Below are positions 40,734-43,578 of a stretch of 64,000 bases of DNA, piece after piece. A program made the translations under genes and the position numbers. Location of the stretch: contig NZ_CP088273.1 in assembly GCF_020731415.2 (NCBI RefSeq), forward strand, positions 811,001-875,000, given 5' to 3'. The DNA comes from Phyllobacterium sp. T1293. Lineage in GTDB: Bacteria; Pseudomonadota; Alphaproteobacteria; Rhizobiales; Rhizobiaceae. Below the pieces are notes generated by a model. The model was not told where the DNA came from and did not search any database. It was given only the letters and a program-made list of their open reading frames with translations. Numbering within the stretch: position 1 is the first letter of the stretch; every line of letters begins with the position of its first letter.

Positions 40734-41588
40734 ATGTCTATGACCCGGAATCTTATATTGGCCGGAATTATCGGTGCCGCATCATTTACGGTTGTACCGG
40801 CCTATGCGCTCACGGCGAAAGAGTGCAGCGTCAAGTATCAGGCAGCAAAGACTGCCGGGACACTTGGCGGCGCAAAGTGGAATGATTTCCGCAAGACGCA
40901 ATGTGCGGATGCATCGCCTGCCGCTGCGGCTCCGGCCCCGGCTGCTCCAACCAAAGCCGCCAAGACAACAGCCGCAGCGCCAAAAGCTGCTGCGCCCGCT
41001 GATTCAGGTGGCGGCCTGACGATGAAGGAATGCAGTGCCAAGTATCAGGCTGCCAAGACGGCAGGCACACTTGGCGGCCAGAAGTGGAATGATTTCCGCA
41101 AGGCCCAGTGCAGTGGTGATGCAGCGGCAACTGCACCGGCCGCCGCGCCAACCAAAGCAACCAAGACAGCCACTGCGCCGGCAGATGCCAGCACCGGTGG
41201 TGGTCTGACGATGAAGGAATGCAGTGCCAAGTATCAGGCTGCCAAGACGGCAGGCACACTTGGCGGCCAGAAGTGGAATGATTTCCGCAAGGCACAGTGC
41301 AGCTCCGGTGCAGCCGCTGCCGCTACGGATGATGACACTGCTCCAACACCTCAGACAGCGACCTATAAGGATGAGCCGCCAGCAGCCACGACGGCAGCTC
41401 CAGCGGGCGTTGGTTTCCCAAAGGCCGTTTCGGCCAAATACTCCACTGAAAGCGCTGGCAAGGCCCGTATGCATACATGCCTTGAACAGTATTATGCCAA
41501 CAAGCAGAACAACACGCTTGGCGGCCTCAAGTGGATTCAGAAGGGCGGCGGCTATTACAGCCTCTGCAATTCCCGCCTGAAGAGCTAA
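40734..41588 (+). CDS. Secreted protein with three Cys-framed repeats
   Basis: A 284-residue protein with a signal peptide (LILAGIIGAASFTVVPAYA, to residue 25). Three near-identical 27-residue repeats follow, each starting CSxKYQAAKTAGTLGG and ending WNDFRKxQC, separated by Ala/Pro/Lys/Thr linkers. A fourth, diverged copy (TCLEQYYANKQNNTLGGLKW ending SLC) closes the protein. Each repeat has a Cys at either end, so one disulfide per repeat in the periplasm is likely. GAGGGAG stands 7 bases before the ATG. I know of no function; the pattern resembles the PsiF-like domain of the protein at 27761-28075. Confidence 0.85.
   Translation: MSMTRNLILAGIIGAASFTVVPAYALTAKECSVKYQAAKTAGTLGGAKWNDFRKTQCADASPAAAAPAPAAPTKAAKTTAAAPKAAAPADSGGGLTMKECSAKYQAAKTAGTLGGQKWNDFRKAQCSGDAAATAPAAAPTKATKTATAPADASTGGGLTMKECSAKYQAAKTAGTLGGQKWNDFRKAQCSSGAAAAATDDDTAPTPQTATYKDEPPAATTAAPAGVGFPKAVSAKYSTESAGKARMHTCLEQYYANKQNNTLGGLKWIQKGGGYYSLCNSRLKS
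41016..41293 (+). repeat. 89-nt perfect direct repeat inside the repeat-protein gene
   Basis: Bases 41016-41104 and 41205-41293 appear identical over 89 positions, with a period of 189 bases. They encode repeats two and three of the protein. Identity even at third codon positions points to a recent duplication or continuing gene conversion. Confidence 0.9.
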
Positions 41589-41645
41589 ATCTGATAACGG
41601 AAAGCGGGGCCATTGCTCCGCTTCCTGCTGCCACAACCCACATCT

Positions 41646-41981
41646 CTCCGTCATCCTCGGGCTTGACCCGAGGACCCATGATCGAGAAGCACGATAATTG
41701 TAGTCGTTCCTTCCCCTTTGTCGTGGGTCCTCGGGTCATCCTCGGGTTAAACCCGAGGACTGAGGATGACGGAGTGGGTTGAGGTATCGGGAGCGATAGT
41801 CTGCAACCTTTGCGTTGCAGAACCATCGTTGCGCCCTTCGACAAGCTCAGGATGAGGGAGAGTGAGGATTGCAGGGAGCCAAGTTCTGCAACCTTTGCGC
41901 TGCAACCATTTTGATCTGCAATCTCTGCGATTATCGTTGCATCCACCGCTCTCCCTCATGGTGAGCCTGTCGAACCACGAA
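41646..41981. repeat. Left mosaic repeat arm
   Basis: The outer part, 41646-41774, is a palindromic unit built on CCTCGGG-N5-CCCGAGG and its inverted copy, bordered by CTCCGTCATCC and GGATGACGGAG. The inner part, 41871-41981, runs from GCAGGGAGCC to CCACGAACC and contains several GTTCTGCAACCTTTGCG-like units. Between them is a CTTCGACAAGCTCAGGATG unit of the kind common in alphaproteobacterial intergenic repeats. The whole arm recurs, inverted, at 42643-42880. Confidence 0.85.
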
Positions 41982-42101
41982 CCACACACCACACTCCACT
42001 CACTAATAACCCTGCAAACTGACATTCTAACCCCTTCCACCTGCATAATTTTCCCACTATGGTCTGCGTTGAGACCGGTCGAAATGGATTGGTCTTGGGG
42101 C

Positions 42102-42269
42102 CTAGAAACCTCGCATACAGCGGTCGGTGTCGACCGCAAAGGCACCTCCTCAGCCCTATGGCCGGGGAGGCCTCGGCGTATGTCCAGAGCTTCGGCTTAA
42201 AGGCCGTGGCGGTCGTCTGTGTGCGACTTTCTAGCTCCCCGGTCACCAGAGGATAATCCTCGGGTGGCC
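42102..42269 (+). ncRNA. Predicted structured RNA, C4/ash-leader-like
   Basis: CTAGAAA (42102-42108) pairs with TTTCTAG (42228-42234), and TCGCATACAG (42111-42120) pairs with CTGTGTGCGA (42217-42226, one G-U), giving a 17-bp closing stem with a small bulge. Inside are a CGGTCG/CGACCG hairpin (42121-42136), a CCTCC/GGAGG hairpin with an inner GCC/GGC (42145-42170) and AGC-TTCG-GCT (42188-42197). A separate hairpin, GGTCACC-a-GAGG to CCTC-g-GGTGGCC, occupies 42241-42269. Several stretches resemble, from memory, the C4 antisense RNA/ash leader of P1/P4-type prophages. The structure is seen directly; the family and the strand are inferred. Confidence 0.6.
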
Positions 42270-42297
42270 GCTTTCCTCGTGAAACAAGGGAGTGCGC

Positions 42298-42615
42298 ATG
42301 ACCGATTATAATTTCTGGCAGGATTTTTTCGATACATACCAATCACTCTCGGACTTGCTGAAAGTGCTGTGGTTGATTGTTCCGCCAGCTTTCATGCTGG
42401 GGATAGTGGCGCTGACGCTGCGATTCAGGATCGAGAGCAAGCGGGCAGGGCTTGATGGCGAACTGGTTTATTCCGTGCATCGGGATAAACAAAACCGGGT
42501 TCATATCATCAGCCATGTAAAGCAGGCGGGAGATAACCCGCCACTGCTATTCCTTGATCAGGGGCGGGGCGAAGCGTTTGAATATGCTGAGGGCAAGCCA
42601 CCTTTAAAGCGCTAA
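42298..42615 (+). CDS. Small single-pass membrane protein of unknown function
   Basis: A 105-residue protein. After a polar start (MTDYNFWQDFFDTYQSLSD), one membrane helix (VLWLIVPPAFMLGIVALTL, about 25-43) leads to a basic, probably cytosolic part with RFRIESKRAG and VHIISHVKQAGDNPPLLFLD. AAGGGAG stands 5 bases before the ATG. It lies 28 bases after the last hairpin of the structured RNA, and both are enclosed by inverted repeat arms. I do not recognise the family. Translational control by the upstream RNA is possible. Confidence 0.75.
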   Translation: MTDYNFWQDFFDTYQSLSDLLKVLWLIVPPAFMLGIVALTLRFRIESKRAGLDGELVYSVHRDKQNRVHIISHVKQAGDNPPLLFLDQGRGEAFEYAEGKPPLKR

Positions 42616-42642
42616 TCATAAAAGAGAGATTTGCACATCTGT

Positions 42643-42880
42643 CGGTTCGCGGTTCGACATAACAACCATGAGGGGCTTGAGTGGATGCAACGCTAATCGC
42701 GAAGGTTGCAGAACAAAGGTTGCAGAACTTGGCTCCCTTGCATCACCCCCACTCCGTCATCCTCAGTCCTCGGGTTTAACCCGAGGATGACCCGAGGACC
42801 CATGATCTGAAAGCACGAGCAATCAAGTTCAATGGAACTCTTTAGGTGTGGGTCCTCGGGTCAAGCCCGAGGATGACGGA
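42643..42880. repeat. Right mosaic repeat arm, inverted copy of the left one
   Basis: 42643-42741 is an imperfect reverse complement of 41871-41981 (shared GGTTCGACA, CATGAGGG, GTGGATGCAACG and AAGTTCTGCAACC units). 42752-42880 is an imperfect reverse complement of 41646-41774. With the left arm it brackets the RNA and small gene. Confidence 0.85.
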
Positions 42881-42903
42881 AGGAGGTGGGGTGCAGTCCG
42901 CGG

Positions 42904-43578
42904 TCAACTCTTGTAAGCGACCCAGCCCCTGAATGTGAAACCGGCGTAAAACAGCTCGATATTCGAGAATCCCGCGTCGCGAAAAATGGTTTCGTCCATG
43001 GCGGGGGAAAGAACGGGCAATCGCTCCTTCATGGTTCTGATGCTGTTCGCAGTCAGGGATATTGGAGCCCCGGATGCCGCCGCGAACGCCGCGTAGCGCG
43101 CGAGCCATTTGTCCAATTCCGCCCCCTCATTGGGGAAGCTGTGGTGCGCGGCAACAAAGGGCGCGCCGGGCTTCAATCGCTGCTGGATCGCGCGCAGCGT
43201 CTGGCGCCGTTCCTCTTCCGGCAGGAAGTGAAGCGTTAGAAGACAGGTTGCGGCGTCGAATGGGCCCTCGGGCGCACTGTCGATATAGCCCTCGTGGAAC
43301 GCAACACGAGAGGCCTGCGCACCGAGATTGGTTTTGGCCAGTTGAAGCATCTCGGCGGAGGGGTCGACGCCATCGAAATGCCAGCGCGGTTGCATCTGCG
43401 CGAGCACGCACAGTTCCATTCCTCCGCCAGCCCCGAGAACCAGAACGCGCGCATCGGCACGAGCCCGCTCTGCCAGAAGCAGACCAGTCATCCGGTGCAG
43501 GTCGTTAAGGCCCGGCACAAGTTGCGCGGTTCTGGCCGCATATCCCGAAACGACATCGGGATTGGAAAACGATGACAT
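42904..43578 (-). CDS. SAM-dependent class I methyltransferase
   Basis: A 224-residue protein. Motif I is VLVLGAGGGMELCVLAQ, the acidic residue closing strand 2 is in FDGVDPSAEMLQLAK, and motif IV is FDAATCLLTLHFLPEEER. A helical N-terminal cap precedes the Rossmann core. The substrate is unknown. It lies just left of the right repeat arm, and an inverted repeat GTAAC/GTTAC lies upstream of its start. Confidence 0.88.
   Translation of the reverse strand: MSSFSNPDVVSGYAARTAQLVPGLNDLHRMTGLLLAERARADARVLVLGAGGGMELCVLAQMQPRWHFDGVDPSAEMLQLAKTNLGAQASRVAFHEGYIDSAPEGPFDAATCLLTLHFLPEEERRQTLRAIQQRLKPGAPFVAAHHSFPNEGAELDKWLARYAAFAAASGAPISLTANSIRTMKERLPVLSPAMDETIFRDAGFSNIELFYAGFTFRGWVAYKS

Follow-up and report, generated by a model that had tools for sequence, protein, structure and literature searches.

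The 64,000-nucleotide stretch of Phyllobacterium sp. T1293 analyzed here, spanning 811001-875000 of its contig and referred to as the window, contains a cassette in which two composite repeat arms enclose an RNA and one small gene. It raises the question of how the RNA relates to the gene, and whether the arms make the pair a mobile unit or an invertible switch. An earlier note on this DNA had described mosaic inverted arms with their units in opposed order, which is borne out by four aligned inverted stretches: 41634-41678 / 42849-42893 (45 nt, 91% alike), 41721-41778 / 42748-42805 (58 nt, 98%), 41873-41907 / 42704-42738 (35 nt, 94%) and, innermost, 41910-41983 / 42644-42717 (74 nt, 77%). The strongly structured RNA and the single membrane-protein gene that it placed between the arms were also recovered, with positions 42050-42300 folding at -119.2 kcal/mol (z -5.35; 0 of 200 shuffles as good), and no transposase was recognised there, either in the list of open reading frames or by Pfam, which gave no match for two of the reading frames between the arms. 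The features are the following.

40734-41588: PsiF-like gene at one flank of the cassette, named by resemblance, with no Pfam match over the cut-off
41634..41985: left arm, with a palindromic unit (41640-41780), a middle unit (41780-41900) and an inner unit (41900-41985), having its inverted counterpart in the right arm
41968..41979, + strand: left half-site TGTCGAACCACG, proposed 5' end of the unit
42071..42096, + strand: hairpin directly 5' of the RNA core (predicted structure and alignment)
42097..42269, + strand: RNA core, model R1, C4-like / sRNA-Xcc1-like
42103..42108, + strand: loop word UAGAAA, pairing with UUUCUA at 42228-42233 (pseudoknot 1)
42161..42251, + strand: stretch similar to Rfam sRNA-Xcc1, below the cut-off
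42162..42169, + strand: CCGGGGAG, pairing with CUCCCCGG at 42235-42242 (closing stem, pseudoknotted in the full leader)
42272..42292, + strand: predicted hairpin over the likely ribosome-binding site AAGGGAG
42298..42615, + strand: gene for a predicted membrane protein of 105 aa, YNFWQDFFDTYQSL family (YNFW), from the reading-frame list and homologues
42640..42893: right arm, the units of the left arm in inverted order, from alignment of the arms
42648..42659, - strand: right half-site (CGCGGTTCGACA on the + strand), inverted, 32 bases past the stop codon, proposed 3' end of the unit
42904-43578: methyltransferase gene at the other flank

Concerning the gene, an alternative GTG start lies at 42292, so that the protein has 105-107 aa. 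Comparison of coding sequences indicates that it is under purifying selection, with dN/dS of 0.11-0.29 against 12 of 13 relatives, the thirteenth not being computable. The protein has 150 homologues at E<=0.001 and, among the 120 matches listed, the names shown are hypothetical or uncharacterised. No family name was obtained from Pfam, NCBIfam, PHROGs or PADLOC, no solved structural relative was found, and the predicted structure consists only of a helix at 19-52 and a small sheet (pLDDT 71, pTM 0.35). The 44 genome loci of the family lie in Hyphomicrobiales and a few other Alphaproteobacteria, and no relative in viral contigs or plasmids was confirmed. Some loci adjoin an integrase gene (L074) or VapE-like genes (L067, L069), as in satellites or islands, and the same family occurs near a HEPN gene (L080) and an HNH-like gene that narrowly misses its Pfam cut-off (L081); the surroundings of L067, L069, L080 and L081 possibly represent a defence or satellite setting. 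Between the window and its counterpart in Phyllobacterium sp. OV277 (L055), silent differences amount to 0.60 in the first 52 codons and 0.21 in the rest, and this unevenness along the gene suggests recombination inside it.

The RNA has, as judged from its alignment, a conserved pseudoknotted fold with extensive compensatory changes. This version of the fold consists of a local hairpin whose loop pairs far downstream, plus the CCGGGGAG/CUCCCCGG helix, and a GG, of interest for C4-type processing by RNase P, lies within the RNA at 42160-42161. Already among 18 RNAs, 29 of 55 predicted pairs showed compensated changes. In 69 distinct RNAs, a set that includes one weak antisense-strand match in L131, 94.9% of cells are paired in the pseudoknotted fold and both sides have changed in 43 of 53 pairs, with slid controls at 46.7% or less; the nested version gives 94.5%, 44 of 55 pairs and slid controls at 50.2% or less, the alignment having been fitted to the nested model, outside which the two alternative helices lie. 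These helices are paired in 98.8% of cells with 5 of 6 pairs changed on both sides (pseudoknot 1) and in 96.7% over seven pairs (CCGGGGAG/CUCCCCGG, where pair 208-308 is AU in 45, GC in 9 and UA in 4). The nested stems 1-4/309-312 and 115-120/204-209 were set aside, since several of their breaks are pairs in the alternatives. Also visible in the alignment is an address strand in two parts, variable in sequence, which pairs with the 5' segment of the same RNA in a stem whose pairs 22-293 to 28-289 use all four Watson-Crick types.

R1 was found in 42 of 151 sampled genomes of the family, or 36 of 109 genera, and in 16 of 398 genomes of the phylum, the own genome being counted in both. Phage records gave no match, and the RNA alone matches four plasmid records at 71-75% over part of its length. 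No promoter-like site was found on the + strand in 41600-42900. Tandem copies a few hundred bases apart occur in L129 (829-1004, 1402-1577) and L137 (1919-2110, 2573-2762), and in L118 the Rfam sRNA Atu_Ti1 (37-128, - strand) lies near a traM-linked RNA.

Comparison across many genera shows that the RNA repeatedly lies immediately upstream of small, mutually unrelated genes with regulatory or mobile-element roles, the distance being tens of bases in most cases. After 70 RNAs at fetched family loci the next gene is YNFW in 25, TraM (an antiactivator) in 14, DUF2285 in 9, HTH in 3 and unassigned in 19; it is YNFW in all six RNAs from the own genome or OV277, and after 20 RNAs from the phylum it is HTH in 5, DUF2285 in 3, TraM in 1 and unassigned in 11. 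These counts cover the fetched part of the R1 matches, and the seeds for assignment were drawn from the same set. Ten chosen downstream members were submitted to Pfam, with the result Prok-TraM 4, RovC_DNA-bd (DUF2285) 1, HTH_3 1, none 3, and a DUF3846 match under its cut-off in the remaining one.

At the loci of the membrane-protein gene itself, R1 precedes the gene at 22 of the 44, of which 17 supplied the alignment of R1, and at 20 of the other 22 a divergent HTH gene lies within 900 bases upstream; the two exceptions are L072, which is cut at a contig end, and L078, which has neither RNA nor HTH gene. Compared with four seeds, of which three come from these same loci, the HTH genes reach best E values of 1.7e-54 to 4.5e-25, and Pfam found HTH_3 in 10 of 10 divergent genes tested and in 3 of 3 of a separate set. 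No divergent HTH gene was found within 1500 bases before the window's gene and the 22 RNA-type loci, four of which have less upstream sequence. Both types occur in the own genome, which has an HTH-type copy at 2135 kb. By this census, the RNA and the divergent HTH gene are mutually exclusive before the membrane-protein gene. A HigBA-type neighbour considered in L063, a locus with a divergent HTH gene, was dropped for lack of Pfam support.

As to its kinship, sRNA-Xcc1 is the closest RNA that has a name, and its Rfam model (RF02221, cut-off 53) matches the window at 27.3 bits (E 0.037), L117 at 36.6 bits and L111 at 35.1 bits, all below the cut-off, over the full 87-position model and at the same place in the RNA; none was found in the other 17 of 19 R1 loci tested, nor in the listed genomes of the window's family. 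RF02221 itself was matched in 57 of 398 genomes of the phylum, with 39 scoring above the cut-off. Inspected by eye, the best-scoring 30 loci have the same 5' segment and closing stem as R1, and in many the 5' segment is copied at the ribosome-binding site of the next gene. At the RF02221 loci L193-L222, many of the RNAs have a two-part strand that matches the ribosome-binding region of the own downstream gene, beside SymE and phage antirepressor genes. Of ten downstream proteins tested, those after RF02221-type RNAs were SymE 2, Bro-N 2, Rha 2, KilA-N 1, P22_AR_N 1 and none 1; the tenth protein of that set, AntA, stands behind an R1 RNA in L181. The Rfam C4 model (RF01695, threshold 45 bits) had no match in the own genome and none at E<=5 in 41500-43000, and the C4 models gave no score at the RNA's place on RNAs of the sRNA-Xcc1 clade.

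If these RNAs act as antisense on the gene behind them, each address should fit its own partner better than those of others. For the sRNA-Xcc1 clade, the self-target score was 32.5, against 25.1 with swapped partners (0 of 10,000 permutations as high), and by the ordered two-helix score the true partner was uniquely best for 14 of 30 and among the top three for 21 of 30. This score was taken up after two others, hence the test was chosen after data inspection; the single-helix score gave 5 of 30 uniquely best (0 of 5000 permutations), and free duplex energy was rejected as G+C-dominated, with 3 of 30 true partners best, though 0 of 5000 permutations. In the window's clade, 70 RNAs scored 25.8 against 25.3, with 623 of 10,000 permutations as high and 3 of 70 uniquely best, and a later test of 28 YNFW-type RNAs gave 28.8 against 26.6 (2 of 10,000 permutations; 4 of 28 uniquely best), in which relatedness was uncontrolled and one or more addresses, that of L073 among them, had wrong boundaries. 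No consistent antisense target was found by eye within 900 bases on either side in the window's clade. It is therefore for the sRNA-Xcc1 clade alone that these comparisons show an address strand complementary to the ribosome-binding site downstream, an arrangement that agrees with the way C4 works (PMC5320573).

The explanation to which we give slightly better than even credence is that the RNA belongs to the C4 / sRNA-Xcc1 kind of post-transcriptional control module, linked in cis to the gene behind it and transcribed together with that gene. The preferred reading is that the membrane protein comes from a switch, immunity or toxin-like gene of mobile DNA and that a C4-like RNA controls this gene. 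RNA and gene would form one joint transcript, from which the leader may be processed; its address strand would then bind a ribosome-binding region, keeping the gene low, and in the window's clade it could target the start region of the gene behind it or act in trans on a related element. In favour of this explanation are the conserved fold, the recurrence before small genes, the exclusion with the HTH gene and the self-target result of the sRNA-Xcc1 clade; against it are the failed self-target test on 70 RNAs of the window's clade, the search by eye that gave no consistent target, the missing C4 match, the RF02221 matches at no more than 2 of 19 further R1 loci, the 19 of 70 RNAs with no assigned gene behind them and the want of a promoter-like site. 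The RNA–protein pair suggested earlier gains as regards control, as a C4-like leader that replaces an HTH regulator, while a toxin–antitoxin pair is not proven.

Part of the same evidence would suit a riboswitch- or attenuator-like cis leader, sensing a ligand, a protein or the state of translation and opening or closing the ribosome-binding hairpin by a route other than antisense, an alternative we consider possible though unlikely. The predicted hairpin over the ribosome-binding site is what such a leader would use; conserved stretches without a counted partner (GTATGTCCAG, CTAAAGG) and the mutually exclusive pairing of GGGGAG with CUCCUC or CUCCCC agree with it, as does the outcome in the window's clade, where neither the score test nor the search by eye demonstrated an antisense target, and the exclusion with the HTH gene fits any cis leader too. 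It is disfavored by the antisense addresses of the related sRNA-Xcc1 clade and by the high variability of the address stem, with its four types of pairs.

More doubtful is a trans-acting sRNA gene with targets elsewhere, merely located upstream of hitch-hiking genes. sRNA-Xcc1 was first described as an 88 nt sRNA (PMC2996969, from the text available), the title of a later paper calls it trans-acting, and 19 of the 70 RNAs have no assigned gene behind them; yet one of only four gene families stands behind the other 51, usually within tens of bases, and the RNA takes the place of a regulator gene, which makes this improbable.

The proposed control module still leaves the arms to be accounted for. 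Their units are ordinary inhabitants of this genome, the 113-base inner unit having at least 72 matching pieces (40 of 224 candidates scored) and the outer palindromic unit at least 79 (40 of 77 scored), counts that include the window's own copies and both strands of palindromes. Because the units are scattered in this way, only their paired inverted arrangement is special at the window, and of the special composite arms proposed earlier that arrangement alone stands. Among 15 other Phyllobacterium loci of the gene, long arm units occur on both flanks only in L055, upstream only in L056, L058, L062, L065 and L066, and weakly downstream in L057; at 8 they are absent, and the RNA–gene pair or its HTH-type counterpart thus also occurs without them. 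The earlier note had named two findings that would speak against its reading, scattered arm units and an RNA and gene found elsewhere without the arms, and both were observed. The arms as obligatory flanks of the cassette were rejected on this count.

The half-sites at the inner edge of the arms behave differently. The left one, with at most one mismatch, precedes the gene by 324-330 bases at 5 of 10 RNA-type loci in Phyllobacterium (window and L055-L058, with one mismatch in L057) and by 386-422 bases at 4 of 6 HTH-type loci (L061, L062, L065, L066), against a background of 11 in 98,811 positions; it was not found at the HTH-type loci L063 and L077. The inverted half-site follows the gene at 4 of 10 RNA-type and 0 of 6 HTH-type loci, being 32 bases past the stop in L055 too and at +58 in L056 and L058. 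Where copies at different sites are compared (L056/L057, window/2093 kb, window/2050 kb), the start of homology coincides with the half-site or lies outside it by no more than about 55 bases, and in L060/L070 it falls inside the half-site. Given this fixed spacing at part of the loci and the homology boundaries nearby, the inner half-sites may be the ends of a unit; the outer mosaic consists of ordinary repeats.

The history of the site adds to this picture. GGDEF and PsiF neighbours enclose the cassette in the window, L055, L056 (P. myrsinacearum AN3), L064 and L068 (P. calauticae), of which only the window and L055 have the methyltransferase gene, and its orientation in L056, L064 and L068 is opposite to that in the window and L055. 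The PsiF-like protein of the window has three internal repeats of the type KECSxKYQAAKxAGTLGGxKWNDFRKxQC. A natural empty site was found in L244, where some 100 bases separate the stop codons of GGDEF and PsiF and the cassette is absent. In a tree of 18 RNA–gene units, one group (99/100 support) joins the window and L055 to the copies that the own genome has at 2093 and 2050 kb, and leaves out the same-site copies of other species. Re-insertion or conversion fits these sequence relationships better than one flip, and a simple inversion of one orthologous cassette is disfavored by the tree. Different chromosomal sites have received the cassette, which perhaps moves as a non-autonomous unit ending at the inner half-sites; a mobile unit, as proposed at first, stays plausible in view of the constant half-site spacing at part of the loci and of the natural empty site.

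That the inverted arms flip the RNA–gene cassette as a switch, also an early proposal, retains the opposite orientations between species and two arm stretches 94% and 98% alike (the innermost being 77%); it is very unlikely, given that the tree places the window and L055 beside two further copies from the own genome, not beside the same-site ones, that species with the reversed cassette are without paired long arms, and that both genomes carrying paired arms have a single orientation. Weakest is the idea that arms, RNA and gene are chance neighbours in a repeat-rich intergenic region, which the scattered arm units, absent at 8 of 15 loci, would allow and which may apply to the outer arms, but which we hold highly improbable as a whole, and for RNA plus gene already disfavored, in view of the RNA adjoining half of the gene's loci in exchange with the HTH gene, the half-site spacing fixed at part of them and the purifying selection on the gene.

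Beyond this locus, we lean narrowly towards a wider reading, in which a large alphaproteobacterial branch of C4-like, pseudoknotted leader RNAs would be a portable control part, and sRNA-Xcc1 a device of that kind whose own partner gene repeats the binding address at its ribosome-binding site. This reading covers the swap with divergent HTH genes and the switch genes of conjugative and other mobile elements, namely TraM, QseM-type antiactivators, HTH repressors and an undescribed membrane-protein family. Both TraM and QseM act as brakes on transfer in rhizobial plasmids and symbiosis islands, and a conserved RNA before such genes would, if the reading is true, mean an RNA layer on quorum-controlled conjugation; sRNA-Xcc1, usually discussed as a virulence sRNA, would be joined to the C4 immunity RNAs. 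A testable role would also fall to a membrane-protein family that is much copied but has no name, with either this RNA or an HTH protein as its control part. In the open literature, with subscription papers mostly outside the scope, neither an RNA leader linked to traM or qseM nor sRNA-Xcc1 and C4 treated as one device was found, and a term search in the available text of PMC10359603 found no leader, riboswitch or untranslated region.

Several known systems can be compared with this cassette. The arm units resemble alphaproteobacterial intergenic mosaic repeats of the RIME-like kind, being palindromic, scattered and composite, and differ in that here two composite copies face each other around a cargo.

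The QseC–QseM switch of Mesorhizobium ICEs has a small antiactivator gene, qseM, controlled by an adjacent HTH protein (PMC8627217, available text), and QseM is a DUF2285-type protein (PMC10359603, PMC8627217, likewise). DUF2285 genes behind 9 of 70 RNAs and the divergent HTH gene at 20 of 44 loci of the window's family recall that arrangement, whereas the window has an RNA in place of the HTH gene and a protein that is not DUF2285.

sRNA-Xcc1 shares with R1 the 5' segment and closing stem, as seen by eye, and the small downstream genes, symE being among those given in the available text of PMC12444791; it differs in that the window's clade has at most a weak copy of the address where the ribosome binds. 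The C4 and sRNA-Xcc1 families appear together in one genome table (PMC12189769, in the part available).

Finally, the C4 antisense RNA of phages P1 and P7 has a closing stem, a two-part target-binding strand and an immunity or switch gene as partner (PMC5320573, available text). R1 differs from the C4 families (RF01695; c4-2, RF02944) in the lack of a covariance-model match in the own genome, in its longer, pseudoknotted leader and in its partners, which are TraM, DUF2285, HTH and membrane proteins, and the tests above demonstrated no self-target for it. Its helices are supported by the alignment, and by eye it appears to agree with the C4 families in a GG on the 5' side of the closing stem, the inner hairpins, the two-part binding strand and a putative immunity or switch gene as partner.
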